From: Rufibacter roseus
GTDB taxonomy: Bacteria; Bacteroidota; Bacteroidia; Cytophagales; Hymenobacteraceae
Assembly: GCF_001647285.1 (NCBI RefSeq)
Contig: NZ_LRML01000012.1
Coordinates: 62,001 to 126,000, forward strand
Direction of reading: 5' to 3'
Length of the DNA: 64,000 nucleotides
Of this stretch, positions 43 through 60,699 are shown piece after piece. Below the pieces are notes generated by a model. The model was not told where the DNA came from and ran no database searches. It saw only the letters and a list, made by a program, of their open reading frames with translations. The position numbers and the translations under genes are program-made. The first letter of the stretch is position 1. Every line of letters begins with the position of its first letter.

Positions 43-90
43 AAACCCGTTTTCAGCCTGTTTTCCATAAAACAGCCCGAAAACGGGTTT
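43..90. repeat. GGCC-palindrome family copy 1, probable helicase terminator
   Basis: The arms begin AAACCCGTTTTC and end GAAAACGGGTTT, with inner CCTGTTTT/AAAACAG pairs around a short loop. It lies just beyond the stop of the helicase gene on the minus strand, so it probably terminates that transcript. It shares its core with about 18 other gaps in this window. Confidence 0.75.
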
Positions 91-112
91 CCAAAAACTT
101 TCACCAAAACGC

Positions 113-1354
113 TTACTTCTTCTTATTCTTCTTCCCTTTCTTCTGATTCTCAAACTCCTCCACCTCACGCAGCAAACTCTTCAAATCTGGCTTTACCTCC
201 GCAGAGAAGTCAATGGTACTGGTGTAATCTTCCTTATTGATTTCTAGGACTTTGATGGGCTTGCCCAAGTATTCCTCAATCACGTCCAGAATGGGTTTTT
301 CCTCGGGGGCACAGAACGAGACCGATTTGCCTTTCTGGGTGCCGCGGCCGGTGCGGCCTACGCGGTGCACGTAGTTTTCGGGCACGTCGGGAAGGTCATA
401 GTTGACTACGTACTCTACGCTTGGTATGTCAATGCCGCGGGAGCTCACGTCAGTGGCGATGAGCACTTTCACGTCGCCGCGCTTGAAGCGGTTGAGCGAG
501 TTGAGGCGGTCTTTCTGGTCTTTGTCGCCGTGCAGGGTTTCGGTGATAATGCCCACGCGCTCCATGGCGTTGTGCACGCGTTCGGCCCGCACTTTGGTGC
601 GCACGAACACCAGTATTTTGCTGCCCTCGTTCTCTTTCACCACGCGCTCCAGAAAGTAGCGTTTGTCGTCCATGCCCACGTACGCCACGCTGTGGTCCAC
701 GTTCTTAGACACGGGGTCTTTGGGCGAAATCTGGATACGGATGGGCTTGGTCACGAGCGAGTACGCCAGGTCTTTGATGTGCTCATTGATGGTAGCCGAG
801 AAGAACAGCGTCTGCCGCTTGCGGGGCAGGTGGCGCAGCACGTCGCGGATGTCTTTGATGAAGCCCAAGTCCAGCATGTGGTCGGCCTCGTCCAAAATGA
901 GCATTTCTACGCGCTCCAGCCGGATGTGGCCCTGGCTCACGAGGTCAAACATGCGGCCGGGCGTGGCCACCAGCACGTCTATGCCGTCTTGCAATTTCTC
1001 TATCTGGGGCGCCTGCTCCACCCCGCCAAACACGGTCATGGTCTCTACGCGGGTGTGCTTGCCCAGCGTGTGGAACACCTCGGTAATCTGGATGGCCAGC
1101 TCGCGGGTGGGCACCATGACCAGGCACTTGATGCCGTCTTGCCGGCCGTACTGCTTGCGCTCATGCAGCAGGTGCAGCACGGGTATGGCAAACGCGGCGG
1201 TCTTGCCCGTGCCCGTCTGCGCGATGGCCAGCACGTCTTCGCCCTTCAAGATGGGCGGAATAGCCTTAAACTGGATATCGGTGGGTTTCTTGAAGCCCAG
1301 TTTGTCCAGGGCTTTCTTGATGGCGGGGTTGATATGGTAATCCTCGAATTTCAT
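113..1354 (-). CDS. DEAD-box ATP-dependent RNA helicase (RhlE type)
   Basis: This is an RNA-unwinding ATPase of the cytoplasm, likely active in ribosome assembly or RNA turnover. All helicase motifs are visible in order: the Q motif (PTDIQFKAIPPIL, about residues 25-37), Walker A AQTGTGKTAAF (about 44-54), PTRELAIQ, TPGR, DEAD, SAT, then in the second RecA lobe ATDVSSRGIDIP and HRVGRTGR. A short Lys-rich tail (KKGKKNKKK) replaces the long basic tail of some RhlE proteins. At 413 residues it is a compact bacterial DEAD-box protein. It is transcribed alone, with a hairpin just after the stop. Long open frames on the opposite strand are shadows of its GC-rich codons. Confidence 0.95.
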   Translation of the reverse strand: MKFEDYHINPAIKKALDKLGFKKPTDIQFKAIPPILKGEDVLAIAQTGTGKTAAFAIPVLHLLHERKQYGRQDGIKCLVMVPTRELAIQITEVFHTLGKHTRVETMTVFGGVEQAPQIEKLQDGIDVLVATPGRMFDLVSQGHIRLERVEMLILDEADHMLDLGFIKDIRDVLRHLPRKRQTLFFSATINEHIKDLAYSLVTKPIRIQISPKDPVSKNVDHSVAYVGMDDKRYFLERVVKENEGSKILVFVRTKVRAERVHNAMERVGIITETLHGDKDQKDRLNSLNRFKRGDVKVLIATDVSSRGIDIPSVEYVVNYDLPDVPENYVHRVGRTGRGTQKGKSVSFCAPEEKPILDVIEEYLGKPIKVLEINKEDYTSTIDFSAEVKPDLKSLLREVEEFENQKKGKKNKKK

Positions 1355-1677
1355 GGGCGCAATGGTTCCGGCCAGCGGCCGAGGTGGTGGCGGTTCTCCC
1401 CTTTTACGGTTCCCCCGCCGAAACTTCTACAAAGGTGCGATTTCTTTCTGGGTTTTGCAGGCGGAGGCGGTGGTTTTGCACTTCGGGGCTGTTTTTGGGG
1501 AAAGAAGTTGTAAACAAGATGAAATTTTATATATTGTATCTCGAAAATAATATATAATATTATCAAGGCTTATTTATTTCTTATTTTTAAAAACTGCACC
1601 GACCTCATTTGAGGTTATGTAAAAAAATTGAACCGGTGCATTATTTACGCGTTGGCAGCTACTTTAATAAGTTTGAA
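1355..1677. other. Intergenic region at the left edge of the AT-rich island
   Basis: The first 140 bases resemble the GC-rich flank, but composition drops abruptly at about 1500. At 1596-1639 GCACCG and CGGTGC enclose a smaller ACCTC-ATTT-GAGGT hairpin. This could be an operator or a junction remnant. No tRNA, integrase or direct repeat was found here. Short open frames on both strands look spurious. Confidence 0.4.
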
Positions 1678-2550
1678 ATGACAAAATTAACATTCACAAC
1701 AGCAGAAAAACTAAACTTAAAAACTCATCCTGACTTTAATGAAATATGGTTGCAAGATAGGATTGCAGAGAACCCTCAAATAATTGGATTAGGAGAATTA
1801 GAGCTTATTGACAGAGAAAGAAAACAACATAAATCTGGTCGGCTCGACCTTTTACTTGCAGATTTTGAAAATAATGCCAGATATGAAGTTGAGCTCCAAC
1901 TTGGGCAAACTGATGAAAGTCACATTATTCGCTGCATTGAATATTGGGATGTTGAAAAAAGGCGTTATCCTCAATACGACCATTGTGGAGTTTTGATAGC
2001 TGAAGATATAACTAGTAGGTTTCTAAATGTTTTAGGCCTTTTTAATGGGCACATACCTCTAATAATAATTCAAATAACAGCATTAAAAGTAGGTGGTAAC
2101 ATTGTTCTAAACTTTACAAAAGTTATGGACAGGTTTGCGTTAAGAAATGATGATATAGTTGAAAGTAAATTAGCAGAAACTGATAGAAATTATTGGAACA
2201 ATAGGTCAACTCCTAAAAATGTTGAAATAGTTGACAAGCTTTTAGAAATTATAAATGAAAAAGCAGAACCCAAGTTAAAGCTCAATTACAACAAATATTA
2301 CATAGGCCTGTCTGACGGGTATAAATCAAGAAATTTTATTCATTTTAAGCCAAAAAAGCAGTTTACAAACGTTCTGGCCGAAATTGAAAATCCTGATGAA
2401 TGGATTCAAAAATTAGAAGATGAGGGAGTATCAGCAGTAGTCAGAGACAAATGGTTGCGTTTTGCAGTAACAACTCAAAATTTTGACAAGAAGAAAAAAA
2501 TCGTAACTGATTTAATTCAATCCGCAGTTGAATTATATAATAAAGATTAG
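1678..2550 (+). CDS. PD-(D/E)XK-like nuclease-fold protein
   Basis: This is a 290-residue protein of unknown role. Its first 100 residues fit a restriction-endonuclease-like fold: Glu22 in an early helix, then GRLDLLL (Asp57) and a beta-strand ending EVELQ (Glu72-x-Gln74). In NucS/DUF91-type nucleases the equivalent stretch is usually D...ExK, so the usual lysine is replaced by Gln. Activity is therefore uncertain. The C-terminal 150 residues are basic and charged and were not recognised. The ATG at 1678 is preferred over an in-frame upstream start at 1609, which lies in a palindrome. Codon use is strongly AT-rich, unlike the helicase upstream, suggesting acquisition. It precedes a membrane protein/DndC-like pair by 88 bases and may or may not belong to the same module. 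Confidence 0.6.
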   Translation: MTKLTFTTAEKLNLKTHPDFNEIWLQDRIAENPQIIGLGELELIDRERKQHKSGRLDLLLADFENNARYEVELQLGQTDESHIIRCIEYWDVEKRRYPQYDHCGVLIAEDITSRFLNVLGLFNGHIPLIIIQITALKVGGNIVLNFTKVMDRFALRNDDIVESKLAETDRNYWNNRSTPKNVEIVDKLLEIINEKAEPKLKLNYNKYYIGLSDGYKSRNFIHFKPKKQFTNVLAEIENPDEWIQKLEDEGVSAVVRDKWLRFAVTTQNFDKKKKIVTDLIQSAVELYNKD

Positions 2551-2638
2551 AAAAGATTCAAATCAACTACATATAAATGTAAACTTCGGATAATTACTGA
2601 ACGTTATTCACACAAGACCCTACTTTAAATATTAACTT

Positions 2639-6813: not shown

Positions 6814-6849
6814 GTTTTCGATTTATTTTCTGAAAAACAGGCCGAAAAC
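6814..6849. repeat. GGCC-palindrome family copy 2
   Basis: GTTTTCG and CGAAAAC arms surround TTATTTTCTGAAAAACAGGC. It lies 47 bases after the stop of the exported hypothetical gene and 132 bases before the HipA-like gene. Confidence 0.6.
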
Positions 6850-8144: not shown

Positions 8145-8184
8145 CTGTTTTACGGCTGGTTTTGGAAAATCACGCCTAAAACAG
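8145..8184. repeat. GGCC-palindrome family copy 3, probable terminator
   Basis: The outer arms are CTGTTTT and AAAACAG, with inner GGC/GCC and TTTT/AAAA pairs. It begins five bases after the DUF3037 stop and probably ends the HipA-like/DUF3037 transcript. Confidence 0.65.
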
Positions 8185-14076: not shown

Positions 14077-14112
14077 GTTTTAGGCCTGCTTTTTAAAAAT
14101 CAGCCCTAAAAC
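14077..14112. repeat. GGCC-palindrome family copy 4, probable terminator
   Basis: GTTTTAGGCCTG faces CAGCCCTAAAAC around a T/A-rich centre. It starts right after the lipoprotein hydrolase stop. Confidence 0.7.
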
Positions 14113-16751: not shown

Positions 16752-16787
16752 GTTTTTTGCCTCTTTTTGAGAAATCAGGGCTAAAAC
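16752..16787. repeat. GGCC-palindrome family copy 5
   Basis: GTTTTTTGCCTC and GGGCTAAAAC arms. It lies between the convergent sugar kinase pseudogene and amidase gene, so it may terminate both. Confidence 0.6.
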
Positions 16788-20131: not shown

Positions 20132-20171
20132 CTGTTTTAGGCCTGATTTTTCTCAAACAGGCCTAAAACAG
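20132..20171. repeat. GGCC-palindrome family copy 6 (best conserved)
   Basis: Perfect 14-base arms CTGTTTTAGGCCTG and CAGGCCTAAAACAG surround a T/A-rich centre. It lies 14 bases beyond the stop of the flavin oxidoreductase gene (minus strand) and probably terminates it. Confidence 0.85.
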
Positions 20172-23979: not shown

Positions 23980-24015
23980 GTTTTAGGCCTCTTTTTTTGG
24001 AAGTAGCTCTGAAAC
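23980..24015. repeat. GGCC-palindrome family copy 7, probable terminator
   Basis: GTTTTAGGCCTC faces AGCTCTGAAAC, with several mismatches. It lies five bases beyond the SDR stop on the minus strand. Confidence 0.6.
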
Positions 24016-25143: not shown

Positions 25144-25184
25144 GCTGTTTTCAACTTGTTTTCTTGAAAATAGCTCCAAACAGC
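25144..25184. repeat. GGCC-palindrome family copy 8
   Basis: GCTGTTTT and AAACAGC form the ends, with TTGTTTT/AAAAT inside; the GGCC core is degraded. It lies upstream of both flanking divergent genes, where a terminator is not expected. Confidence 0.5.
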
Positions 25185-26696: not shown

Positions 26697-26733
26697 CGTT
26701 TTTAGCCTGTTTTACAGAAAACAAGCCAAAACG
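26697..26733. repeat. GGCC-palindrome family copy 9, probable terminator
   Basis: CGTTTTTAGCCTGTTTT faces AAAACAAGCCAAAACG. It lies 23 bases after the rlmD stop. Confidence 0.7.
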
Positions 26734-28726: not shown

Positions 28727-28762
28727 GTTTTAAGTCTATTTTTAGGAAAACTTGCTAAAAAT
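28727..28762. repeat. GGCC-palindrome family copy 10 (degenerate, divergent gap)
   Basis: GTTTTAAGTCTATTTTT faces AAAACTTGCTAAAAAT. It lies between the divergent thiL and regulator genes, so it cannot be a terminator of either. Confidence 0.45.
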
Positions 28763-31257: not shown

Positions 31258-32013
31258 ATGCTAGAAAACGCCATCAAAGACCTGCTTTATAAAATTGCCG
31301 ATGACCAACTTATTCTGGGGCACCGCAACTCTGAGTGGACCGGCTTTGGACCTATGCTGGAAGAAGACATTGCATTCTCTAGCATGGCTCAAGATAAACT
31401 GGGCCATAGCCTTGCCTTCTACACGCTTCTACACCAAATGGGTGAGGGCGACCCAGACACCGTGGCTTTTATGCGCAACGCAGACCAGTTCCACAACAGC
31501 CAGTTAGTAGAGCTACCTATTGGCGAATATGACTTCAGCCTCATTCGCCATTTTTTGTATGACAACGCGGAAATTCTTCGTTTTGAGTCTTTAAGCCAAT
31601 CAACCAACGAGGAGATCGCTAAAATAGCCACCAAATTAAAGGGCGAAGTAAGGTACCACGTGTTGCACGCTAACACGCTTGTAAAACAATTGGGCAGCGC
31701 CACGCAAGAAAGTATCAGCCGCCTGCAACAGTCTTTGGAGTATGCTTTACCGTTTGCTCTGGGAATTTTTGAGCCCTCCAAGCACGAGCAGGAACTGATT
31801 GATGCCGGTATCTACTCTGGCGAAGCTGCGTTGCAAAACCAATGGCTAGAGCGTATTTCGGCAGTTTTAGAAAAAACACACCTAAAACTCCCCGAGATTG
31901 CTAACCTACAGCCAGTGTACGGCGGCCGCTACGGGCAGCACACTGAACACCTACAGCCCCTGCTTGATGAAATGGCCGAAGTATTTAAGATTGACCCAAC
32001 AGCTGAGTGGTAA
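31258..32013 (+). CDS. paaC: 1,2-phenylacetyl-CoA epoxidase, subunit C
   Basis: This is the 251-residue non-catalytic ferritin-like partner of PaaA, which supports the epoxidase dimer. Landmarks are LILGHRNSEWTG, LEEDIAFSSMAQDKLGHSLA, FLYDNAEILRFESL, and the C-terminal YGGRYGQHTEHLQPLLDEM. It lacks the full iron-ligand set of PaaA, as the family does. It follows paaB after six bases. The next gene, paaD, is 214 bases away across a palindromic repeat. Confidence 0.95.
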   Translation: MLENAIKDLLYKIADDQLILGHRNSEWTGFGPMLEEDIAFSSMAQDKLGHSLAFYTLLHQMGEGDPDTVAFMRNADQFHNSQLVELPIGEYDFSLIRHFLYDNAEILRFESLSQSTNEEIAKIATKLKGEVRYHVLHANTLVKQLGSATQESISRLQQSLEYALPFALGIFEPSKHEQELIDAGIYSGEAALQNQWLERISAVLEKTHLKLPEIANLQPVYGGRYGQHTEHLQPLLDEMAEVFKIDPTAEW

Positions 32014-33423: not shown

Positions 33424-33458
33424 GTTTTCACGCTAGTTTTCGAAAAACAGGCCAAAAA
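33424..33458. repeat. GGCC-palindrome family copy 11
   Basis: GTTTTCACGCTAGTTTTCG faces AAAAACAGGCCAAAAAG. It lies directly beside the strong terminator at 33455-33500. Confidence 0.55.
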
Positions 33459-33500
33459 GGGAAGAGCCGACGAATTATAATTCGGCGGCTCTTCCCTTTT
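33455..33500. terminator. Bidirectional terminator
   Basis: AAAAGGGAAGAGCCGACGAAT pairs with its complement with one mismatch, around a four-base AT loop. It sits between the convergent paa operon and the M3 peptidase gene. Confidence 0.88.
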
Positions 33501-33527: not shown

Positions 33528-35261
33528 CTATTTCAGTTTCTCAAGTTCATCTTTAATGAAATCTACAAGTGACTGGATATACTCGCTGGAGAAGTCAAAC
33601 CGAATACCGGCGGCGGCATAGATTTCGCCAATAGTGGCGGTGTAGCCTAGGCTCAGAGCATTCTTATACCCCTCAAGAGCTGAGGCAGGCTCCTCTTTGA
33701 AGCGTTTCCAAACAGCTACGGCTCCTAGCTGAGCCATGGCGTATTCAATGTAGTAGAAAGGTACTTCGTAGAGGTGCAGCTGTTTCTGCCAGATGTACGG
33801 CTTCAGGTGCTCTAATCCGCTCCAGTCTACCTCATGCAGGTTGAACTCCTCAAAAATACGCACCCAGTTCTGGTGTCTTTCTTCAACGGTATGTTCAGGG
33901 TTTTCATACACCCAGTGCTGAAATTTATCAATAGTAGCTACCCATGGAAAAGTTTCCAAAACCCCCTCCAAATGCTGCCGCTTCGCCCGCACTAAATCTT
34001 CTTGGTTAGAGAAGAAAATGTCCCAATGATCAAGGGTCAGCAGCTCCATAGACATAGAAGCCAACTCCGCCACTTCTGACGGTGGATGTTTAGATGAATT
34101 CAACGGCAGGTCTCTGGTCAGGAACGAATGAACCGCATGTCCGCCTTCGTGCAGCAGGGTCACCACATCACGCAGCGAGGAAGTTGCATTCATGAAAATG
34201 AACGGAACGCCAATTTCGTCTAACGGATAGTTATACCCGCCCGGAGCTTTCCCTTTGCGGCTTTCCAAGTCTAAATGCCCCATTTCGCGCATAGTCACCA
34301 GACAGTCACCTAAGAAAGAATCAAGGCGGTAGAAGCATTCAATGGTTTTCTCCAACAACTCCTCACCCGTTTGGAAAGGCTCAAGCGGAGGAAGCTGGCT
34401 AGGATCAACTTCTAAATCCCAAGGGCGAAGCGTGTCTACCCCCAGTAACTCCTTATGCTCTCGATCAATCTGGCTTATGACAGGAACAACTTTTTCTCTG
34501 ATAGCCTGATGGAATGCAAATGTGTCCTCCGGACGATAGTCAAAGCGTCCCAAGGCAGCAAACATATAGTCTCTGAAGTTATCGAAACCGGCATTCTTGG
34601 CCACTTGGTGGCGCAACTGTATCAGCTCAGTAAACAGCTCGTCAAGCTTTTCTTTGTCCTGAAGGCGGCGTTCCTGAATGGCGCGGTAAGCCTCTTCCCT
34701 AACGGCGCGGTCTGTTTTCTTCAGTCGGTCTGCGGCGCGTTGCAGGGTCATTTCCTCGCCGTCTAACGTTACCATCATGGCACCGGCTATGGCTCCGTAT
34801 TGCTGCTGCTTTGTACTGATTTCAGTCTGCAGCGGAATATTCTCCTCGCGGAACAGTTCAATGGCTCTCTTTACGCCGCGCAGGTAAATGAAGAATCGTT
34901 CAGAATCTAACCCCTCGACGTACGGCGACTCTACCAACTTCCGGTTAAATGCATCATCATAAGGCGAGGCCTTGGGCTCAATTTCAGTCACGAAAAACTG
35001 AAACGCCTCTGTTAGTGCCTCATCCTGGGTGTCGCAGGTCATCCGGATATAACGCCAAGCCAGGTTCTCTGACAAAACGCTTTCCAGCTCACTCCGGTCA
35101 GAGATCCACTTCTCCAACTCTTTCTGAGAGTTGATGGGCCGGTTCTTGAGCTCTTCAAATATTGGCTCTAACGAAGCCCAGTCCTTTACCTCAAAATCTG
35201 CCGGAAGGTAAGCCCGGGGCTTTGCTTTTGGCAAGGCCAACGTTTTGGGGGTATTTTCCAT
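33528..35261 (-). CDS. M3-family oligoendopeptidase
   Basis: This 577-residue zinc metallopeptidase is of the thimet/PepF family and degrades oligopeptides in the cytoplasm. The active site HEGGHAVHSF (HExxH form) is present, with the downstream Glu ligand in SEVAELASMSMELL. The length fits PepF-like enzymes. No signal peptide is visible. ATG 35261 is preferred over an upstream in-frame codon. It lies six bases from the paaE stop on the same strand, so it is probably transcribed with paaE. That would link it to the phenylacetate regulon by position only. Confidence 0.92.
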   Translation of the reverse strand: MENTPKTLALPKAKPRAYLPADFEVKDWASLEPIFEELKNRPINSQKELEKWISDRSELESVLSENLAWRYIRMTCDTQDEALTEAFQFFVTEIEPKASPYDDAFNRKLVESPYVEGLDSERFFIYLRGVKRAIELFREENIPLQTEISTKQQQYGAIAGAMMVTLDGEEMTLQRAADRLKKTDRAVREEAYRAIQERRLQDKEKLDELFTELIQLRHQVAKNAGFDNFRDYMFAALGRFDYRPEDTFAFHQAIREKVVPVISQIDREHKELLGVDTLRPWDLEVDPSQLPPLEPFQTGEELLEKTIECFYRLDSFLGDCLVTMREMGHLDLESRKGKAPGGYNYPLDEIGVPFIFMNATSSLRDVVTLLHEGGHAVHSFLTRDLPLNSSKHPPSEVAELASMSMELLTLDHWDIFFSNQEDLVRAKRQHLEGVLETFPWVATIDKFQHWVYENPEHTVEERHQNWVRIFEEFNLHEVDWSGLEHLKPYIWQKQLHLYEVPFYYIEYAMAQLGAVAVWKRFKEEPASALEGYKNALSLGYTATIGEIYAAAGIRFDFSSEYIQSLVDFIKDELEKLK

Positions 35262-35279
35262 AAAATAGGTCAAAAACGG

Positions 35280-36521: not shown

Positions 36522-36557
36522 GTTTTTGGCCTCTTTTATGAAAAACGCCTCCAAAAT
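36522..36557. repeat. GGCC-palindrome family copy 12, covering a start codon
   Basis: GTTTTTGGCCTCTTTTATG is followed by AAAAACGCCTCCAAAAT. The centre of the palindrome contains the ATG (36538) of the M23 peptidase gene, so the stem would hide the start. It also encodes the first six residues. Confidence 0.6.
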
Positions 36558-39297: not shown

Positions 39298-39339
39298 AGT
39301 GTATTAGGGCTGATTTTAAAAATACAGTCCTAATACACT
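39298..39339. repeat. GGCC-palindrome family copy 13, bidirectional terminator
   Basis: AGTGTATTAGGGCTG faces CAGTCCTAATACACT with one mismatch around an A/T-rich loop. It lies between the convergent MscS and permease genes, right after the MscS stop. Confidence 0.8.
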
Positions 39340-39349
39340 AATTTTTCAC

Positions 39350-41859: not shown

Positions 41860-41860
41860 A

Positions 41861-44500: not shown

Positions 44501-44715
44501 AGTCACAAAATCACGTTAAGCTGTGATCCATGTTAATTTAAATTCATTTTTAGTTTATAATCTGCAAAAATTGGCAACTAAACTCTCCCCCCTTTTTACC
44601 TTCACCTTTGAAATATTGAATATTAAGCATCAAGATTTATCTCTTATAGTAACTCTGAAACTTGCTTTGAAGGAATATTTCCTCTATCATCTACTATAAT
44701 CTAGCTGCATTACAA

Positions 44716-44775
44716 ATGACGTTGAAATAGAAAAAGGCTACAAGTATTTGTAGCCTTTTTCTATTTCAACGTCAT
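44716..44775. terminator. Terminator with 28-bp perfect stem after porU2
   Basis: The arms start ATGACGTTGAAATAG and end CTATTTCAACGTCAT, and all 28 bases pair around GTAT. It includes AAAAAGGCTACAA/TTGTAGCCTTTTT near the loop. Strong in either direction. Confidence 0.92.
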
Positions 44776-44795
44776 AAGACGCACAATTAGACAAC

Positions 44796-47700
44796 TTATC
44801 TCAGAATATAAACTTTGCCATATTCCTTTTGGAAAGCTTTATCTCCTTTTGTTGATCTATGCTTCATTTCATCCTGACCATTATCCATTATCACTCGGTA
44901 TAAGTAAACACCATTGGCTAATCTATCCCCAAATTCGTCTGTACCATCCCAAGCAAATTCAGTCACATTATTACCTATTTTAATAGGACCTAATTCCTGT
45001 TTCTGAATTTCTCTAATCACTTTTCCTGTAACAGTCATAATTTGGAGCCTCATATTCTCTGGAACAGTGGTACCAGTCAAAGTAAACACAAATCTAGTTT
45101 TAGAGGAAAAAGGATTCGGGTATGGATAGAAGTTTGTAATGCTTGACTCGTTGATCACCTTAAAGTTGATACTGAAACGCTCGGTACCAGCTCTTTGTCC
45201 CAAAGCATCCTCACCCTGCACTTCTAAAGTATATTCTCCGTCTTCTAATTGTGGCTGATACTCGACGCGGAAGTCGTTTTTATCATCAGCAGGAAACCAT
45301 TTTACTCTTGAATCACTGCTCACATTTATTTCCTCGAAATCACCTCCTTCTTTCTTCAAATATACTTTTACAGAGGCTGGATCTGTAATAGGAATCTTAT
45401 TTGTATTATCCTTTAACACCATGTTAATCACAGGCCTAGGAGACACTATATCACCATCAAGAATCCTGTTTCCATCAAAAACAATATCCAAGGTCGGAGG
45501 CATTCCTACATATTGCCCAACGGTAAAAGGGACCTCCAGCACATTATTAAGGTAATTCTGCTCCGGTAATGTCTCTGGAATTCCTCTAGGATTTACCGTT
45601 ACCCGTAACCTATTATTCCCCTTCATCTTTAAAGTAGAGAATGCATGAGTGAAATATAAAAGCTCCTCCTTTTGCAAAGGTTTTACCTTAAACGATTTTT
45701 GCTCTTTGCCCCCATTTTCTAAAAATACCACAGCCTCAACAGTCAAAGAGTCATTAAAACTATTGCTGCTAATGTTATGGAAAGCAAATTGTAAATTTAA
45801 TTGTCCGTTTGTTGCCTGTTCAGAAAGAGTCTCTAATTGATACTTATCTAAGCCTACCAAATCTGGACGCATCAATCCTTCTGGTACTCCCTCAAACAGT
45901 ACCGTCCAATAATTTAACTTAGGTGCTGAACGTTGCACTTCATCTTTTAAGATTAATTTTAATTTTAGATAAGGAAAAGTTGTTGCATTTACACTAGAAA
46001 TATCAAAATCAGTAGCTTTGACATCTCTCCAAAGCACAATCTCCTCTTGATTATTATTCACGCCAACAATATCTAATTGATATGAGTCTGAATCTTCTAA
46101 ATCTAATTGAAGTTGTAAGGATTGCCATTTATTTGCGGGACCTATAAGAGAAGAAGTCAATGTGCCTTGCCCCACTTTAGAAATGACCTCTTTCTCCATA
46201 CTTATGGTCTGCAAGTTTGCGGGCGTTGGGTCAGTATCAGAGGGGCCTACTTCAACTGCAGTTCCAGGCACAGAGCCCTTACGACCAACAATAGCAAACG
46301 GCTCACCTGTTTTAAGTTTATCTATCAAAGAAGATCCTATGTTTCTAAAGGCCTCTTTCAAACTTTCTGGGAAAGTAGTGAAAGGTACATTGTACATACT
46401 TAGCATAGCAACATGATAACCTTCTGGAATAGCTCTCAAAAACTCTTCCAACTTAGTTCTATCAGCTGCGGTTGTTAGATTTCCAAAATGGTATACAAAT
46501 TTTGGTTCTGTCCCACAAATTCTTCCTAAACCGGCTGGCATACCAAGAAATGGTTCTAGTGTCTTATCGTTCAAGACAATAGCCATGAAATTTGCACTAC
46601 GCCCAGCACAATCTGCCTCAATAGTTTTAAAGTTATCTAAGAAAATTCCATACGGAGGATAACCAAAGGTGCCGCCGCCTCCAACACCTTTCAACTCAAA
46701 GATCCTGTACATGGGTGAGAAAGAAAGCTCTTCCTTCTCAGGATCATCAATCAAACTTTGCTTAACAGCCTTCTGTAATTGACCAATTCCTTTTTGCGAC
46801 CATCCTGGTTGACTGTTTGGTATGTATCGGAAGGAGCTGCTAGCCCACACCAATTCCTCACCTGCTGCTGCCGTTTCATATCTAAGCCTCCAGAAGTACA
46901 CCCCACTTTCAGGAAGGGTTACCTCCCACTCAGGCATCAAATCAGCCTGTACAACATTTATCTTCTTCCAAGGGCTATTAAAAGTATAAACAGTATCTAT
47001 TTCAAAGTAATAGCCCCGCCGGCCAACCAACAAATCAGTGGAATGCCCAATTAGCTTCACTTTATTTTCGCTTATAATTGAATATTCCTTAGGACCAATG
47101 GCCAAAACTCCGCTTTTAGAGAAGAAATATTCTAATGTAGCTGTATTATTATTTTCTTCTAGCTCCTCAATGTCATTATTCGGGTCTAGTTTTACTTCAA
47201 ATACATTAACCCCAAAGCCGTTGGTGGTTTTAGCTTCTAATTCAAGTTCAACAGTGTCTCTGTAATAAACTGCCTGTACTTCCTGTGGATCATATTCTAT
47301 AGAAGTACCATTCTCCAGTTTACGGGTTACAGATATTTGAAACGGTTTATCATTTACTTTGCCAAGATTCCTTACGTCTACCTTCAACAGAAATTTTTCC
47401 GAGTTGGCGGTAACTTTTGTTGACCCATCTAATGAGTGCAAGCTTAAACCACCATCGGTTACAGTGTAATCTGCTTTATCAGGAGCAATTACATGTAAGG
47501 CCGGATCTGCCTGCAAAATCATTTGCATGTTCATGGCAATAGCATTATCCCCCTTTACTTTCTGCTCTGTAAGTTCAATTGCTCTTTTATGCTGAATACC
47601 TATTGGTTTTAAGAGATATTCTTCATTAGCGAAAGCGGTAGTATAAAAATTAGACGAATACACATTCATCAGTGACGGATATCCATAACTGACATGTGCT

Positions 47701-49778
47701 AAAAACCCTATGGTTCCTTTATTAGGTGTTAGAAGCCAGTCTTCGCCAAAGGAACGTTGTGTAGTAAAAATATTACCCGCATTACATCCGTTCATAAGAA
47801 GCATAGGGTACTTATTTTCATTATTGTACCCATTTACTACATCTGAAACCCTACCAATATCTAAATCAGAAACTGTTCCAGAACTGTGTCCAAAGAAGGT
47901 TATCAAAGACAATCCATTATTTAGTTCCCTTGCAATATTTACTGTCTCTAAGCCCCCGGTAGAACTTCTTATGACGGATTTAACATTAGCACCCAACCAT
48001 TTGTCTTCAATGATACGTTCATAGCTCCTCATGTAAGACAAAATAGTATTCTGCTCACTTCCATGGCTACCTATTAGGTGTAGAATGTTTTTACGCCAAT
48101 CCAAATTCTGGGGCAGCGCCTCATGTGTTTTTACCTTATCAAGATAGGCTAATACTTCTGCGGCAGTATTGGCAGGCACCCTTCCGGTAGCTACTTTAGG
48201 GGCATAATTGCCTTTCTCCCAATCAGCAGTAAAGAAAATATCTGAACCAGGAGTACCGCCAGTTGGAACTAAGTCTTTGTAAGCTAATGAATTCGGATTT
48301 TTTCTTACATTAACATTATCCGCCTCTAAACCTTTACCCAATAGAAGCAGGTATTCTGGCTTGCCGTTTGCCATCATATACTTCATATATCTTCGTAAGG
48401 CTGCTGCAGATTTGTCACCGAAGAAGAACTGATTGTAAATCAAATCTACATCCATCACTAAAGTGTCATATCCTCCTCCAACACCTGAGGCTCTATAAGA
48501 GGCATAATCCTTTATTGGGTTAGTAGACGATGAAGTAGGTTGCATCAATACCTTATGTGAAATAATCAGATAATTGGCTTTATTACCAGCCAAATTCCTG
48601 AACTTCACTTCATGTGCAGCAGGTGGCACCAAATTGGCTCCTGACCATAAAATTGCTTTAGAAAAAGAGGGAGGAAAAACAAATCCTTTGTGCGCTCCAT
48701 TTACCGTACCCTGAATGCGTTTAATATTGTCAACTGATGTAATATCATAAGCAATGGCATTTGCTGCAGTACTTCCTTCAAACAAATAGGATAAAGGCGA
48801 AGGCGAAGGCGAAGCATTGACAAATGGCAATTTATTAGTGGAAATAACATTACGCTGAGGATAGATAGTTTTAAAATAAAAAGCTCTATATCCATTAGTT
48901 GATTTCCGAGCAGTTACCCGTACAATCAATCTCCCATCACTAGCAAAGTCAGTGTGAGCTATAGTGAAAACTTGTTTTTTAGATTCATGATCAGCAAGTT
49001 GAATGGTACCCACTAATCTTTCTGCGCCTGTAGGAGGTTTAATAAATACGTCAACATCATTCGCGTCACCTACTCCAAAAATGGCTACCTCTAACTTTGG
49101 CGAGGGGCCACCAGCATGGGGATTAGTAACCATATTCGGTAGGGTAAAAGTCCAACCAGCGGTTAATCCTCCTGTGAACCCTTCACCCGCGTCCATCCAT
49201 GACATATAATTCTCTCCGAACCTTCTTCCTCTAGAGTACAAGCCATTGTCAAAAAAGAAGTTTTCTTGCCAGTGCCAAGGCTCTGGATTTAAACTAGCCG
49301 GATCTTGTGCATAAGTATCCATCCTCTTGCCTGGAGCAGCAGACCAAGTTAAGAAGTAGGCCGCAGTGTCAGTATATAAGCTATAGTATGTATTAATATG
49401 ATCTGCATCTGGATTCTTATATAATTCACGATCTAAGGCACCATCATTATGCTCTCCATAAAACTCGATAAAATCACCTGTGTCAAAAGAACCGTCTGCC
49501 TCACCAGAAACATGAATAGAAACTTCCTTACCTCTGCGGTAAAGCTGAAAGTTTCTAGGATCTACTCCTGAAATACCGGCTGCCTGCAAATAACCATGAT
49601 CAAGACGATAAATACCTGTGGCAGGTACTTTGATCTTGTAATACTTCTGGTTGTAGTTTATCCACTCATTTCCGTAAATAAACTGCTGGCCAAATGATTG
49701 CTGCGCTTTACCGAACAGAACAGTCAGTAAAAGCAAGGCCAAGAAGTAAATTTTGCTAGGATAAATAGTTGTCTTCAT
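44796..49778 (-). CDS. Type IX secretion sortase-like protein PorU2
   Basis: This is a giant 1660-residue exported protein with a gingipain-type (C25) peptidase domain. PorU-type sortases cut the C-terminal signal of T9SS cargo at the outer membrane. A signal peptide covers about 1-25. The C25 domain lies at about 410-790, with the catalytic pair in FFGHSSGTVSDLDIG (His) and LLMNGCNAGNIF (Cys). CARDB/Ig-like domains follow. The C-terminal ~90 residues form a T9SS sorting-like domain (FYPYPNPFSSKTRF ... NGVYLYRVIM). The length exceeds PorU (recalled as about 1150), which is why PorU2 is preferred. porV2 lies 17 bases upstream. ATG 49778 gives the leader; a TTG upstream is rejected. Confidence 0.85.
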   Translation of the reverse strand: MKTTIYPSKIYFLALLLLTVLFGKAQQSFGQQFIYGNEWINYNQKYYKIKVPATGIYRLDHGYLQAAGISGVDPRNFQLYRRGKEVSIHVSGEADGSFDTGDFIEFYGEHNDGALDRELYKNPDADHINTYYSLYTDTAAYFLTWSAAPGKRMDTYAQDPASLNPEPWHWQENFFFDNGLYSRGRRFGENYMSWMDAGEGFTGGLTAGWTFTLPNMVTNPHAGGPSPKLEVAIFGVGDANDVDVFIKPPTGAERLVGTIQLADHESKKQVFTIAHTDFASDGRLIVRVTARKSTNGYRAFYFKTIYPQRNVISTNKLPFVNASPSPSPLSYLFEGSTAANAIAYDITSVDNIKRIQGTVNGAHKGFVFPPSFSKAILWSGANLVPPAAHEVKFRNLAGNKANYLIISHKVLMQPTSSSTNPIKDYASYRASGVGGGYDTLVMDVDLIYNQFFFGDKSAAALRRYMKYMMANGKPEYLLLLGKGLEADNVNVRKNPNSLAYKDLVPTGGTPGSDIFFTADWEKGNYAPKVATGRVPANTAAEVLAYLDKVKTHEALPQNLDWRKNILHLIGSHGSEQNTILSYMRSYERIIEDKWLGANVKSVIRSSTGGLETVNIARELNNGLSLITFFGHSSGTVSDLDIGRVSDVVNGYNNENKYPMLLMNGCNAGNIFTTQRSFGEDWLLTPNKGTIGFLAHVSYGYPSLMNVYSSNFYTTAFANEEYLLKPIGIQHKRAIELTEQKVKGDNAIAMNMQMILQADPALHVIAPDKADYTVTDGGLSLHSLDGSTKVTANSEKFLLKVDVRNLGKVNDKPFQISVTRKLENGTSIEYDPQEVQAVYYRDTVELELEAKTTNGFGVNVFEVKLDPNNDIEELEENNNTATLEYFFSKSGVLAIGPKEYSIISENKVKLIGHSTDLLVGRRGYYFEIDTVYTFNSPWKKINVVQADLMPEWEVTLPESGVYFWRLRYETAAAGEELVWASSSFRYIPNSQPGWSQKGIGQLQKAVKQSLIDDPEKEELSFSPMYRIFELKGVGGGGTFGYPPYGIFLDNFKTIEADCAGRSANFMAIVLNDKTLEPFLGMPAGLGRICGTEPKFVYHFGNLTTAADRTKLEEFLRAIPEGYHVAMLSMYNVPFTTFPESLKEAFRNIGSSLIDKLKTGEPFAIVGRKGSVPGTAVEVGPSDTDPTPANLQTISMEKEVISKVGQGTLTSSLIGPANKWQSLQLQLDLEDSDSYQLDIVGVNNNQEEIVLWRDVKATDFDISSVNATTFPYLKLKLILKDEVQRSAPKLNYWTVLFEGVPEGLMRPDLVGLDKYQLETLSEQATNGQLNLQFAFHNISSNSFNDSLTVEAVVFLENGGKEQKSFKVKPLQKEELLYFTHAFSTLKMKGNNRLRVTVNPRGIPETLPEQNYLNNVLEVPFTVGQYVGMPPTLDIVFDGNRILDGDIVSPRPVINMVLKDNTNKIPITDPASVKVYLKKEGGDFEEINVSSDSRVKWFPADDKNDFRVEYQPQLEDGEYTLEVQGEDALGQRAGTERFSINFKVINESSITNFYPYPNPFSSKTRFVFTLTGTTVPENMRLQIMTVTGKVIREIQKQELGPIKIGNNVTEFAWDGTDEFGDRLANGVYLYRVIMDNGQDEMKHRSTKGDKAFQKEYGKVYILR

Positions 49779-49795
49779 AAAACTCGTACTCAAAA

Positions 49796-50875
49796 TCAAT
49801 CAAAACTATAGGCAACGGAAACTATTACAGAAGACATCTGGGAATTATCAGACACTTTTGAAAGTGCTAAGTCCAGCATCAAGCCATGGGCGGCAACGCC
49901 AATGCCAAAATTAGGCTGCACTTTCCAGCTTTTCTCACCACTAAAGTCTTCAAACTGTTGAAGGTTGTTCAAGCCCCCACGCAGAAAAACAGAATTGGCG
50001 TAGCCAAATTCTACCCCAACTCGTGGATCAATTGAAGCAAACTTGGAGGAAATCAAGGTATTTCTTTTCCCGTCAAAAGTGACATCTAAATCAGTGGCCA
50101 CTAAGGCAGAAAACTTCTGACCCATTTGGAAAGAACGCCCTACACCTAACACAAGTCGGGGTAGGGTTATTTCAATACTGTTGGTGTTGAAGGAAGTCTC
50201 TTCCTGAAGGTAAGTATCTTCTAGCTCTTCAGCATTAAGTTTCCAGGCAGTAAAAGTGGTGGTAATGTCACGGGCCATCAACCCGAATTGCCAGTTACCG
50301 CGACGCAATTGGGCACCAGCATCAATTCCAAATCCCCAGGCATTGGCAAAATCACCTACGTTACGGTAAATAATTTTTGCATTAGCACCCAAAGTCAAGC
50401 CTTTAATTAAATTGCTCTGCCGGGCGTAAGAAGCCAGAAAAGCATAATCGGCTACTGAGAAAAACTCTATACTGTCATATTGTATAGCTCCATATTCGTT
50501 TTGGAGGCGTCTGGTATCAGCAATATCATCTACCCCAACTCTAATAACCGAAAAAGAAAGCGCGCTGCTGGAATCTAACTTTGCGGCATATGACCCAAAA
50601 TCGTTTTTGATAATTCCAGCGAAGAGTTCTGAGTGCATGTATGAGGCATTGTGTTTATTTTTCAAGCCCACCAAACCCGCAGGGTTCCAGTAACCGGCAG
50701 TGGCATCGCGCACAATGGCTGACTGTACTCCGCCCATGCCTAATGCTCTAGCCCCAATACCAATGTTCATAAACTCATTGCTGTATTTTGGCGCAGAAAC
50801 TTCTTGGGCATTACTTTCAGTCAAGCCCAGGCAAAAGATGCTTAGGGCCAAGAGAATAGATAATCGTTTAAACAT
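49796..50875 (-). CDS. PorV/PorQ-family outer-membrane protein (PorV2)
   Basis: This 359-residue beta-barrel protein is of the PorV (LptO/FadL-like) family, the partner that presents T9SS cargo to PorU. A signal peptide (about 1-23, ending SNAQ) is followed by the family start SNEFMNIGIGARALGMGGVQ and DATAGYWNPAGL. Barrel strands fill the rest and the last residues (VIVSVAYSFD) end in an aromatic/acidic barrel signature. It is immediately upstream of porU2 on the same strand, so the two form an attachment-complex pair. Confidence 0.88.
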   Translation of the reverse strand: MFKRLSILLALSIFCLGLTESNAQEVSAPKYSNEFMNIGIGARALGMGGVQSAIVRDATAGYWNPAGLVGLKNKHNASYMHSELFAGIIKNDFGSYAAKLDSSSALSFSVIRVGVDDIADTRRLQNEYGAIQYDSIEFFSVADYAFLASYARQSNLIKGLTLGANAKIIYRNVGDFANAWGFGIDAGAQLRRGNWQFGLMARDITTTFTAWKLNAEELEDTYLQEETSFNTNSIEITLPRLVLGVGRSFQMGQKFSALVATDLDVTFDGKRNTLISSKFASIDPRVGVEFGYANSVFLRGGLNNLQQFEDFSGEKSWKVQPNFGIGVAAHGLMLDLALSKVSDNSQMSSVIVSVAYSFD

Positions 50876-51083
50876 AATGTACTTGTAACGAAATTATAAT
50901 CCGTAATTATGATGTAAAGATAAAAGGCTTCTTCTAAATATCAGTATAGTCAATTCTATAAACATTACAATTATAAAATTTAATATAATCTAATGAAGTA
51001 CTTAAGCCTAAATCTCAATACCACAGGCTCTTTTCACTTCTCAAATCACCAACACTAGCTCATAAAATATTCTGGCACAATAT

Positions 51084-51119
51084 GTTTTAAGCCTATTTTC
51101 TCTAAAACAGCTCCCAAAC
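51084..51119. repeat. GGCC-palindrome family copy 14 (divergent gap)
   Basis: GTTTTAAGCCTATTTTCTC faces AAAACAGCTCCCAAAC. It lies between divergent genes, away from any gene end. Confidence 0.55.
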
Positions 51120-54118: not shown

Positions 54119-54436
54119 GTGGCTACTTTAGCCTTGTTTTCCAGAAATAAGGCTAAAGCACAAAATTTCAAGAGCCCGCTTTTTACGGATTTCGAAGCGA
54201 GGTTTTTGTACAAGGAGGACGCGCCTTTGGCAAAGTCCTCCTTTCTTCCACCTTCGGTTAACTATTGAGGACCGGTTTAACTACATCAGTTTTCCACTGA
54301 CAGACCCGGTCCTTATTTTCCCTCTCTGCTTCTTCACCTCTCCTTTACTCCTTTTTTGGGATTCACTTTTTTTTCTGACAGCCCTTAGTTCCTTCTACAG
54401 CGCCATCATTTATTTGAATCTTCTATCCATCTAACT
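54119..54436. other. Intergenic region after the PspC gene
   Basis: It contains the GGCC-family hairpin at 54126-54158 and a pyrimidine-rich stretch at 54300-54430. No -7 box of good quality and no gene was recognised. Confidence 0.5.
54126..54158 (+). repeat. GGCC-palindrome family copy 15, probable terminator
   Basis: CTTTAGCCTT and AAGGCTAAAG are perfect 10-base arms around TGTTTTCCAGAAAT. It starts eight bases after the PspC stop. Confidence 0.75.
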
Positions 54437-55330
54437 ATGAAATTTTCTTCAGCAAACACACTTCTAGTGACTTTCCTTTTGCTGGCAAACCATTCGTTTG
54501 CCCAAAACACACCTTCAAGTTGTGAGACAAAACTTAAGACTTATAAAGACTGGAAAGAGACTGCTCAGACTCAGTGGAGCCTTTTCCTGAAAAGCCAGAA
54601 CTCAGGAAGCTTGCAGTATATAGGCGCTTTCCATTCCACAGACCCTACACATCAGCAATTTACCCAGATAAAAGAAGCGTGGAACCAGCAGAAACCCACG
54701 CTGGTATTTTTTGAAGGCCCTGACCGCGGCACTGCCGCCTCTGAGACAGAAACCATACAGAAATTGGGTGAATCAGGTTTTGTTCGCTATTTAGCAAAGG
54801 CCAACGGGGTTAAGACGCAGTCCCTAGAAATGTCTCCTCAACAAGAGATAGACCAGCTGGTAGCTTCAGGAAAATTCACCCCAGAGCAGGTCAAATTGTT
54901 TTTTGTCTTAAGGGAGGCCAGCCGGTTAAGAGACCGAAAGGGACTGAAGGGAGAGCAACTGACAGAGGCCGTGGCACAATTACTTGTCAAAGTGAACACC
55001 GTCATCAGAGGCTATGAGAAAGTAATACCAGATGTTCCGGCATTGCAGGAGGCATTCGGCAAATATTGGGCCTCGCCTGCCAACTGGCAAGAGGTCCCTG
55101 CTGCTTGGTTTGACCCTCTAGGAGACGGTCAGAAAACCGGAGGAAAATTCACGAATGAGATCAACCGCTTGAACAGCGAGCACCGGAACCTTCATATGTA
55201 CAGGCTCCTTTCTGCTGCCGTGCTCAAGGGCGAACACGTTCTGGCGGTGGTAGGCCGGAACCACGTACCAATGCAGGCAGATGCGCTGCAATGTGCCTTA
55301 GGAATAAGCACACCTCAGACGAAAAAATAG
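54437..55330 (+). CDS. Exported TraB/Tiki/EreA-like protein
   Basis: This 297-residue periplasmic protein has a signal peptide (about 1-22, ending NHSFA). The fold of the TIKI/TraB/EreA-like superfamily is suggested by an early metal-ligand pattern YIGAFHSTDPTH, a central FFEGPDRG with Glu, and a late VVGRNHVPM with His. Members are metallo-hydrolases of several kinds; the substrate here is unknown. It is a lone gene with a perfect 25-bp hairpin overlapping its stop. Confidence 0.65.
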   Translation: MKFSSANTLLVTFLLLANHSFAQNTPSSCETKLKTYKDWKETAQTQWSLFLKSQNSGSLQYIGAFHSTDPTHQQFTQIKEAWNQQKPTLVFFEGPDRGTAASETETIQKLGESGFVRYLAKANGVKTQSLEMSPQQEIDQLVASGKFTPEQVKLFFVLREASRLRDRKGLKGEQLTEAVAQLLVKVNTVIRGYEKVIPDVPALQEAFGKYWASPANWQEVPAAWFDPLGDGQKTGGKFTNEINRLNSEHRNLHMYRLLSAAVLKGEHVLAVVGRNHVPMQADALQCALGISTPQTKK

Positions 55331-55382
55331 TATCTGCGTTTTGTGCCTGTTTTGCGGAAAACAGGCACAAAACGCAGATACT
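55329..55382. repeat. GGCC-palindrome family copy 16, perfect 25-bp stem
   Basis: The arms begin AGTATCTGCGTTTTGTGCCT and all 25 bases pair around GCGG. It overlaps the stop of the TraB-like gene and faces the convergent nucleotidyltransferase gene, so it is an obvious two-way terminator. Its core GTTTTGTGCCTGTTTT is the family core with one change. Confidence 0.92.
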
Positions 55383-56988: not shown

Positions 56989-57024
56989 GTTTTCGGCCTG
57001 TTTTTAAGAAAGTAGGCCAAAAAC
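56989..57024. repeat. GGCC-palindrome family copy 17
   Basis: GTTTTCGGCCTGTTTTT faces AAAGTAGGCCAAAAAC. It lies 150 bases upstream of the tRNA nucleotidyltransferase start, not at a gene end. Confidence 0.7.
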
Positions 57025-57443: not shown

Positions 57444-57479
57444 GTTTTAGGCCTACTTTACCAAAAACAAGCCTAAAAC
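57444..57479. repeat. GGCC-palindrome family copy 18, probable mce terminator
   Basis: GTTTTAGGCCTACTTTACC faces AAAAACAAGCCTAAAAC. It lies 13 bases beyond the epimerase stop on the minus strand. Confidence 0.75.
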
Positions 57480-60178: not shown

Positions 60179-60201
60179 AAAAAAGAAAGGAGGATACGCG
60201 T

Positions 60202-60528
60202 ATGATTACCGTTTCTGATAAAGCAAAGGAAAAAGTAGAGAAGCTAAAGAAGGAGTCTAATATAGACGACAGCTTCCGTTTGAGAGCCTCTGTGGCTGGT
60301 GGCGGTTGCTCTGGCCTGTCTTACAAGCTTGACTTTGATGATGAGGTAAAGCCTATGGACCAGGAGTTTGAGGACAAAGGCGTAAAGGTAGTGGTAGACA
60401 TGAAAAGCTTCCTTTACCTGGCCGGTACTGAGTTGGACTTTTCTGACGGCTTGAACGGCAAAGGCTTCTTCTTCAACAACCCTAACGCCAGCCGTACCTG
60501 CGGCTGCGGCGATAGTTTCTCGGTTTAG
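60202..60528 (+). CDS. A-type iron-sulfur carrier (IscA/ErpA/HesB family)
   Basis: This 108-residue carrier moves Fe-S clusters to target proteins. The three conserved cysteines are in GGGCSGLSYKL (about 35) and TCGCGDSF (about 101 and 103). It has the family length. The gene has an AGGAGG-type stretch (AAAGGAGGATACG) before ATG 60202, one of the few clear Shine-Dalgarno-like sites in the window. It closes the isc operon, followed by a strong terminator. Confidence 0.93.
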   Translation: MITVSDKAKEKVEKLKKESNIDDSFRLRASVAGGGCSGLSYKLDFDDEVKPMDQEFEDKGVKVVVDMKSFLYLAGTELDFSDGLNGKGFFFNNPNASRTCGCGDSFSV

Positions 60529-60540
60529 TTTTAGCTATTT

Positions 60541-60586
60541 CATAAAATAAAAAAGGCACCTCTAGAGGTGCCTTTTTTATTTTATG
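60541..60586. terminator. Terminator of the isc operon, 46-base perfect palindrome
   Basis: It reads the same on both strands: CATAAAATAAAAAAGGCACC then TCTAGA in the centre and the mirrored GGTGCC and T-rich arm. The poly-A and poly-T arms allow use in either direction. Confidence 0.92.
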
Positions 60587-60663
60587 AGGTATGCATTGTT
60601 AAGTTGTTTTGAAGCCTCATTCAATAAAGATCCATTAAAAATAGCACCGAGCAGCTAGTGTAC

Positions 60664-60699
60664 GTTTTCGGCCTCAATTCCTAAAAATAGGCTAAAAAC
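60664..60699. repeat. GGCC-palindrome family copy 19
   Basis: GTTTTCGGCCTCAATTCCT faces AAAAATAGGCTAAAAAC. It lies 80 bases after a complete terminator, so it is not needed for termination here. Confidence 0.65.

Follow-up and report, generated by a model that had tools for sequence, protein, structure and literature searches.

The window, a 64,000-nt stretch of the Rufibacter roseus genome, carries many copies of a recurrent 36-nt palindrome with the plan GTTTTnGGCCTGTTTT-nnnn-AAAACAGGCCnAAAAC (Table 1). The initial annotation had listed 19 such stretches, and as a recurrent family they stand: 18 of the 19 score 25-49 bits with a symmetric 36-nt matrix, which was trained on 14 of them and is thus circular for those 14, against a best score of 14.2 in ten order-2 random windows. 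The remaining stretch, at 54126-54158, scores below that best random value when taken alone, and is accepted as a copy because the orthologous site carries copies in 16 of 16 genomes. The scan of the window also recovered two unlisted copies, at 31853-31888 and at 35242-35277. The match at 1480-1515 is borderline (score 15.8) and was left out of the copy set.

Table 1. Palindrome copies in the window, with matrix scores
Feature	Position	Strand	Score	Remarks
palindrome copy	49..84	.	46.1	arms reach 43-90
palindrome copy	6814..6849	.	41.2	
palindrome copy	8147..8182	.	40.3	
palindrome copy	14077..14112	.	48.7	5 nt past stop of gene ending 14071
palindrome copy	16752..16787	.	41.1	convergent gap
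palindrome copy	20134..20169	.	46.0	
palindrome copy	23980..24015	.	35.1	convergent gap
degenerate copy	25147..25182	.	25.5	divergent gap; 11/16 pairs
palindrome copy	26698..26733	.	38.4	
degenerate copy	28727..28762	.	31.3	divergent gap; 12/16 pairs
degenerate copy	31853..31888	.	29.1	within predicted gene; unlisted earlier
palindrome copy	33424..33459	.	38.5	convergent gap
palindrome copy	35242..35277	.	39.1	joins two minus-strand genes; unlisted earlier
degenerate copy	36522..36557	.	32.8	divergent gap, at gene's predicted start; 12/16 pairs
variant copy	39301..39336	.	27.8	GTATT..AATAC; arms reach 39298-39339
degenerate copy	51084..51119	.	37.6	divergent gap; 11/16 pairs
weak copy	54126..54158	.	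12.5	3' of PspC-domain gene; orthologous site filled in 16/16 Rufibacter
palindrome copy	55338..55373	.	36.2	palindrome reaches 55329-55382; locus-specific flanks
palindrome copy	56989..57024	.	47.3	
palindrome copy	57444..57479	.	45.9	12 nt past stop of glyoxalase-family gene (gene on minus strand)
palindrome copy	60664..60699	.	39.5	downstream of gene 60202-60528

Independently of the matrix, the exact half-site GTTTTNGGCCTNTTTT has 242 matches genome-wide versus one for the reversed control. With a refined matrix, 464 kb (the window and 400 kb from a second contig) yield 135 copies, whereas order-4 random sequence yields none at the same cut-off, and few scores fall in between. This bears out the claimed density of one copy per 3.4 kb; extrapolation in eight genomes gives approximately 1,650-2,900 copies per genome. 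Among the refined-matrix copies the T/A runs (positions 3, 4 and 14-16) are constant at 95-99%, while position 6 has no base preference and position 9 is C in 53% and G in 34%. The family had been described as GGCC-centred, with a persistent GGCC core. GGCC is indeed present, but it sits within each arm and not in the middle of the palindrome; constancy is highest in the T/A runs, and GGCC is limited to the dialects of some species.

Distribution, old positions and species dialects

The family is present in all 16 Rufibacter (Hymenobacteraceae) genomes examined, and 394 genomes sampled from the rest of the class all lack a strict pattern of the same plan, in agreement with the lineage-specific character proposed for it. 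A covariance model, which had been suggested as a check, gave matches in 3 of 118 genomes including its own; the other two, from the same order, were weak. One (G536) has six matches at four places (best 34.2 bits) and carries one palindrome of the same plan besides related, less symmetric repeats, and the other (G499) has a single place matched on both strands (31.1 bits). Within the samples searched, the family thus appears limited to Rufibacter. Four copies are found in a phage record; judged by eye, three of them begin inside the T-run belonging to a terminator-like hairpin. No description of the family was found in the literature searched, which lies largely outside subscription journals.

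The positions of the copies are old and their offsets conserved. Downstream of the PspC-domain gene a copy lies 4-10 nt past the stop in 16 of 16 Rufibacter genomes, and downstream of the glyoxalase gene 6-16 nt past the stop in 14 of 15. Gap occupancy in two genome pairs was shared in 14 cases and single in one, and shared in 15 and single in one, respectively; in a check for MITE-like empty sites and target duplications, the one of these only two presence/absence gaps that is shown does not align cleanly. Judged from sequence comparison, the well-sampled species each have their own palindrome dialect. Locus memory is lost between species when dialects are compared at the same locus (2-5 loci per pair), with same-locus identity exceeding random-locus identity in some pairs (most in G051-G048, 0.719 vs 0.676, and in G000-G012, 0.773 vs 0.734). 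The T/A runs come out of the sequence alignments as the slowest-changing part of the palindrome: orthologous copies, here only those detectable by a matrix dominated by these very runs, diverge by 0.086-0.147 in the T/A runs, 0.25-0.35 in the middle, 0.40-0.48 in the loop and 0.49-0.51 in the flanks.

Placement at gene ends and the question of termination

The copies lie at the ends of transcription units. Of the convergent gaps 121 of 147 hold a copy, of the tandem gaps 236 of 447 and of the divergent gaps 61 of 163; their commonest place is after stop codons, which many copies had been said to follow, and few fall within well-supported genes (52 of 942).

A lineage-specific terminator design, as put forward in the initial annotation, would act in one or both directions, either as a hairpin alone or by supplying the U-tract to an intrinsic terminator upstream. 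Several observations are consistent with this: the higher occupancy of convergent than of divergent gaps, the stability of the near-stop copies, which is the greatest (mean dG -14.7), and an excess of G.U over A.C pairs in copies at most 35 nt past the stop (134:90; p 0.004 in this one stratum of six). Of 203 sense terminator-like hairpins, 25 have a palindrome that begins at -8 to +1 nt from the stem end, where its first T-run can act as their U-tract, and a canonical terminator within 250 nt is found in 6 of 156 tandem gaps with a near-stop (≤35 nt) palindrome, against 34 of the 225 that lack one. However, this depletion is a matter of room, since it is gone when only terminators starting 45-250 nt past the stop are counted (4 of 156 versus 5 of 225). 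In this fair, room-corrected comparison an apparent substitution of terminators by palindromes (a terminator in 2 of 102 gaps versus 36 of 188) vanished.

Other evidence is at variance with termination. No U-run follows the palindrome stem, the bases there are not T-rich, and divergent gaps are also filled. Copies more than 35 nt from the stop are without strand bias (G.U:A.C 74:77, 61:68 and 84:88), and palindrome stems overall show none (275:248, p 0.26), against 45:13 for ordinary terminator-like hairpins, used as a positive control. In G000 canonical terminators are found at 16 of 109 ends with a palindrome and 17 of 114 without; in four other genomes, too, the two rates do not differ significantly (for instance 11 of 26 versus 4 of 21 in G051, p 0.12). 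U-tract terminators coexist with the palindromes, usually upstream of them, and a palindrome often starts at the T-run of such a terminator. In tandem gaps holding both, 31 of 34 copies lie past the terminator, so that these copies are not the first to stop transcription. Such an order is to be expected, as uniform placement in the gap already puts 91% of copies "after" (49% under a stop-offset null); a first count had given 30 after and 2 before.

On the occurrence, base-pair and room-corrected tests, termination was therefore dropped as the general function, and we regard it as an unlikely explanation of the family. Copies within 35 nt past a stop may nevertheless have an RNA role, which is kept in view because of their weak strand bias. 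Bidirectional intrinsic terminators (A-run, GC stem, T-run) also sit after stops and between convergent genes, but the palindromes have the opposite polarity, with the T-run in the 5' arm and the A-run in the 3' arm, lack a trailing U-tract and are strongly conserved in sequence, beyond the needs of termination, as had been pointed out initially. As a further point of likeness, in 2 of 6 genomes of other genera a hairpin with a T-run was found behind the corresponding gene.

Candidate readers and mobilisers

Unit ends are where supercoils are expected to collect. The copies could be immobile sites for a dimeric or tetrameric protein which binds duplex DNA (gyrase/BIME-like, or a nucleoid protein) and organises the chromosome or insulates units. 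In line with such a protein, the dyad T/A runs are equally constant near stops and in convergent and divergent gaps (0.93 each), and the 47 top-scoring places among the matches listed are evenly spread on the G012 chromosome (KS p 0.71). However, each copy has two half-sites carrying 11-23 bits apiece, whereas finding a site needs about 11 bits; copies occur in the phage record, no such protein was found, and position 6, though free of base preference, is complementary between the arms. Among copies detectable by the matrix dominated by T/A runs, this complementarity amounts to 0.66 near stops, 0.62 in convergent gaps, 0.55 downstream of terminators, 0.50 in tandem gaps at least 80 nt past the stop, 0.46 in divergent gaps and 0.25 in genes. 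Superfluous for a duplex-binding protein, it may stem from hairpin selection or templated repair. We consider sites of this kind distinctly unlikely to account for the family.

That a RAYT (Y1 HUH) transposase spreads the family as a selfish REP/REPIN-type element is, in our judgement, very unlikely. The Rufibacter palindromes are extragenic with compensated changes, and share with REPINs, as portrayed in part of PMC3116915, a short many-copy design with conserved ends, a compensated middle and a variable loop. Y1_Tnp genes are present in 15 of 16 Rufibacter genomes; the 33 Y1_Tnp loci contain 74 copies where genome density predicts 45.3, a GTTTT-type hairpin (at least 10 paired bases) lies within 300 nt of the gene at 4 of these 33 loci as judged by eye, and copies in the phage record would also suit a mobile element. 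The check for such a transposase gene, which the initial annotation had recommended, nonetheless gave no convincing link to the palindromes. The single-contig genome G017 has no Y1_Tnp at E≤0.001, a cut-off below which a diverged protein could fall, yet an estimated 1,742 copies. Other short palindromes, e.g. CTTCCGGATT-AATCCGGAAG, occur at 11 of the 33 loci, from which the list of their arms was itself drawn up. The local excess is mild (2.24 copies within 1.6 kb at Y1_Tnp loci versus 1.76 at ordinary genes of 400-800 bp). On these three grounds RAYT was rejected as the mobiliser; the stable positions in the two genome pairs also speak against it. Unlike REP sequences and REPINs, moreover, the family lacks a GT[AG]G foot (127 of 133 copies are preceded by T or C, and R. 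ruber flanks are TTCT-like) and keeps genus-wide conserved positions strongly biased to unit ends. According to passages of PMC6006769, the subclass 2.6 TnpA-REP genes of Bacteroidetes adjoin atypical structures, palindromes without the GT[AG]G foot; these resemble the Rufibacter family as dispersed, footless palindromes of Bacteroidota. Compared by description, however, the palindromes of 22-25 nt next to the RAYT-type genes of Rufibacter seem to match them better than the GTTTT family does.

The species dialects are also reminiscent of DNA uptake signals. Passages of PMC3630211 report that the DUS of Neisseriaceae, short sequences found genome-wide, come in dialects and occur close to terminators as inverted pairs of half-sites, and the palindromes could be a comparable watermark, paired as hairpins at unit ends. 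Yet all 18 exact half-sites in the 400 kb lie within palindromes, so that no lone exact half-site was seen there; few copies lie in well-supported genes, and no uptake receptor is known. Such a watermark is extremely improbable.

The reading we prefer, to which we give an even chance, is a Rufibacter-specific, REPIN-like element acting at the DNA level, in which extragenic palindromes at transcription-unit ends are read by a putative trans-acting factor. We infer a trans-acting protein, which would be a DNA-binding or single-strand-processing factor recognising either the duplex, as a dyad of two TTTT...TTTT half-sites, or the single-strand hairpin. This putative reader would keep the T/A runs constant, and the dialects would follow from its shifting specificity or from copying or conversion between copies. 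New or retained copies would favour the slot right behind the last transcribed feature, be it a stop codon or an intrinsic terminator's T-run; those directly past a stop codon would be transcribed and may add an RNA-hairpin role, in 3'-end protection or as a termination aid. In favour of this reading we count the restriction to the genus in the samples searched, the placement, the old positions, the dialects, the slow T/A runs, the lack of an overall RNA-strand bias, the dependence of position-6 complementarity on context and the phage copies. Counting against it are that the trans-acting factor was not found, the RNA-strand bias near stops, the complementarity at free positions, which duplex binding would not require, and the excess of same-locus over random-locus identity in some genome pairs.

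A bolder possibility, which we hold only tentatively and think doubtful, is a genus-wide DNA punctuation code, in which some two thousand dyad sites per genome mark unit ends, their positions kept since the common ancestor of Rufibacter while within each species their sequence changes jointly so as to track a fast-evolving, putative non-RAYT DNA reader. Known REP biology offers no easy account of concerted change at perhaps two thousand conserved positions when an obvious mobile-element enzyme is lacking. In practice, terminator predictors based on hairpins could take such palindromes for terminators. With 16 genomes and several dialects, Rufibacter allows a direct test of whether extragenic palindromes act as signals of the host or as parasites.

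Detection and distribution of the palindrome family

The symmetric 36-nt matrix used here (two arms around a 4-nt loop, a T-run in the 5' arm and an A-run in the 3' arm; the GTTTT family) was trained on 14 of the 19 palindromes of the initial annotation and is thus partly circular, so that independent tests weigh more. Eighteen of these 19 stretches scored 25-49 bits, against a maximum of 14.2 in ten random windows; the copy at 54126 reached only 12.5 bits, and two copies had gone unlisted (see table). The claim that the copies are commoner than chance was borne out: the 5.12-Mb genome contains 242 exact matches to the half-site GTTTTNGGCCTNTTTT versus one to the reversed control, and 464 kb of this genome hold 135 copies versus none in order-4 random sequence. 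By extrapolation from the stretches read, the whole genome would contain ~1,650 copies. The palindrome is a real element. The longest palindrome-free stretch of the window (39337-51083) includes the gene of a 1667-aa protein with Peptidase_C25 and Ig-like domains (44796-49799).

Additional palindrome copies and short-palindrome loci
Feature	Position or locus	Source
Additional palindrome copy	31853	Matrix scan of window
Additional palindrome copy	35242	Matrix scan of window
Short-palindrome loci beside Y1_Tnp genes	L005, L006, L171, L174, L175, L176, L179, L180, L193, L194, L195	

The perfect palindrome, searched in 84,980 species (one genome each), returned 89 stretches, 89/89 from six species of Rufibacter, a genus within the Hymenobacteraceae. 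Each of 15 other Rufibacter genomes has the half-site 13 to 879 times, against 0-2 times in each of 134 non-Rufibacter genomes of the family and each of the remaining 295 of the phylum sample; of the 395 genomes sampled from the class, a broader pattern of the same plan matched one, namely the source genome itself (101 times). A covariance model of the kind proposed initially, made from 61 copies and scored on at most 150 candidates per Rufibacter genome, matched 16/16 Rufibacter genomes and 3/118 genomes of the order, two of these weakly. No GTTTT-family palindrome was found in 119 kb read from six genomes of other genera. An incomplete genome from another family of the order (G536, L237) carries GCGTTTTGGGC-type repeats, some palindromic and with a similar T/A-run plan, which are possibly an independent family.

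Relation to genes, terminators and RNA

In a survey of 1.45 Mb from 16 genomes (601 copies, simple gene caller), palindromes occupied 121/147 convergent, 236/447 tandem and 61/163 divergent gaps of at least 60 nt; 48 copies fell inside genes, and 156/419 copies in tandem gaps lay within 35 nt of the stop. The initial reading as a lineage-specific terminator design found no support as a general account. Canonical terminators stand at 16/109 ends with a palindrome versus 17/114 without in the source genome, and at 11/26 versus 4/21 (G051), 10/40 versus 5/20 (G048), 6/21 versus 7/22 (G006) and 4/31 versus 3/13 (G022) in four other Rufibacter genomes, none of these differences being significant. 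Tandem copies sharing a gap with a terminator lie beyond it in 31/34 cases (uniform placement predicts 91%, stop offsets 49%), and among the six genomes of other genera, two carry a T-run hairpin directly 3' of the same gene and a third has a hairpin without T-run. The palindrome is therefore not a general replacement for terminators.

The palindrome can, however, be joined to a terminator. At 25 of 203 post-stop sense terminator-like hairpins it begins between -8 and +1 relative to the stem end; in such abutting pairs the U-tract of the terminator can be the palindrome's first T-run. With convergent gaps included, 89/203 sense hairpins have a palindrome start within 150 nt, the starts per 10 nt declining (25, 16, 10, 7, 9, 3, 4, 2), and on the upstream side a palindrome ends within 150 nt of 48 hairpins, the nearest bin accounting for 18. 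Of 162 tandem copies at least 35 nt from the stop, 17% stand just behind a strong hairpin and 5% just before one (8% and 7% at control positions). A phage record of unknown host (IMGVR_UViG_2839759663_000002; L098, L249-L253) contains GTTTT-family palindromes at two strong and two weak places in 39 kb, a lower density than in Rufibacter chromosomes; by eye, 3/4 abut a terminator-like hairpin as in chromosomes, and one lies among phage genes, a neighbouring gene matching the terminase family.

Mismatches in tandem copies, read on the upstream gene's sense strand, were balanced overall (G.U 275 versus A.C 248, p 0.26), compared with 45 versus 13 in 141 ordinary terminator-like hairpins. A stratified count, which adds 80 of 89 named loci, partly from the G048, G027, G037 and G060 genomes, so that a few copies are counted twice, gave 134:90 below 35 nt from the stop (p 0.004, one of six strata), 74:77 at 35-80 nt, 61:68 at 80-200 nt, 84:88 beyond 200 nt, 38:47 behind a terminator and 315:276 without a preceding one. 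Near-stop copies therefore carry some RNA signature and the rest none, although the near-stop excess could instead reflect transcription-linked mutation. The palindrome behaves mainly as DNA.

Constraint, age and species dialects

In two close genome pairs, with 31 and 30 orthologous copies compared, the fraction of differing sites is 0.147 and 0.086 in the T/A runs, 0.353 and 0.250 in the middle, 0.484 and 0.400 in the loop and 0.492 and 0.512 in the flanks, a comparison biased towards the T/A runs by taking in only copies matrix-detected in both genomes. Position 6 of the arm shows little preference for any base in several genomes, but its complementary fraction (shuffled value in brackets) is 0.66 (0.37) near stops, 0.62 (0.44) in convergent gaps, 0.55 (0.37) behind a terminator, 0.50 (0.35) in tandem gaps at least 80 nt from the stop, 0.46 (0.36) in divergent gaps and 0.25 (0.30) inside genes. 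Among 54 perfect-arm copies of R. ruber, all four pairs occur at position 6, 44/54 complementary; loops vary, two types making up 28/54. The palindrome is under constraint.

Along an orthologous 20-kb stretch compared across Rufibacter, a palindrome lies 4-10 nt past the stop of a PspC-domain gene in 16/16 genomes and 6-16 nt behind a glyoxalase-family gene in 14/15, and short intra-cluster gaps are empty in every genome compared. Two closer pairs share 14 and 15 occupied gaps and 9 and 15 empty ones, one gap in each being occupied in one genome only. The element is old within Rufibacter. A non-coding stretch 3' of the PspC-domain gene (window 54150-54250; GGATTTC...AAGGAGGACGCGC..GGCAAAGTCCTCCTT) is kept, by eye, in 16/16 Rufibacter genomes and terminates in a terminator-like hairpin; an Rfam scan of the window matched only tRNA.

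Although positions are shared, the spelling differs with the species: in G051 arms position 12 is C in 86% and position 13 is A in 72%, in G048 position 5 is A in 76% and position 6 is G in 84%, and in G022 position 6 is T in 91%. Across five species (ten pairs, 2-5 loci each), same-locus identity (0.58-0.77) roughly equals that of random copies (0.68-0.75), copies of one genome sharing 0.73-0.81; the closest pairs keep a locus memory (0.83 and 0.73 versus 0.76 and 0.66; 8 and 11 loci).

Mobilisation and classification

Mobilisation by a RAYT (TnpA-REP) transposase, the gene check proposed initially, received a largely negative answer. Y1_Tnp, the domain of these enzymes, is matched in 15/16 Rufibacter genomes, and its loci hold a mild excess of GTTTT copies (74 versus 45.3 expected; 2.24 per locus versus 1.76 at other small genes), 4/33 having a GTTTT-type hairpin nearby. 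However, no Y1_Tnp match was found in the single-contig genome G017, with an estimated 1,742 copies, and 11/33 loci bear a different short palindrome arm; there are six such arms, together present eight times in 464 kb of the source genome, both strands counted. These second, shorter palindromes beside RAYT-type genes (CTTCCGGATT-AATCCGGAAG, GTTCGGGATT-AATCCCGAAC, GGCGCGGAAG-CTTCCGTGCC) look like their cognate REPs. PMC6006769 reports atypical structures beside Bacteroidetes subclass 2.6 TnpA-REP genes, which, as described there, the short palindromes fit better than does the GTTTT family; we infer that the Rufibacter Y1_Tnp proteins fall in this subclass.

Compensated changes, a REPIN feature, are present (covariation 0.312 versus 0.131 shuffled, in the 61-copy alignment, taken from 78 candidates that had been picked as well paired). 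REPIN and terminator were both dropped as classes, because defining features that were tested are lacking. We place the palindrome among extragenic palindromes, as a new variant that resembles REPINs in its working but is without their transposase; alternatively, it works like a binding site with dialects. In G006 (L157, L210-L212) the family is strongly degenerate (about 11 bits per half versus 19-23 in five other genomes and 14-15 in two), and this species may have lost the reader, the supposed trans-acting factor, so that genes missing from it would be candidates.
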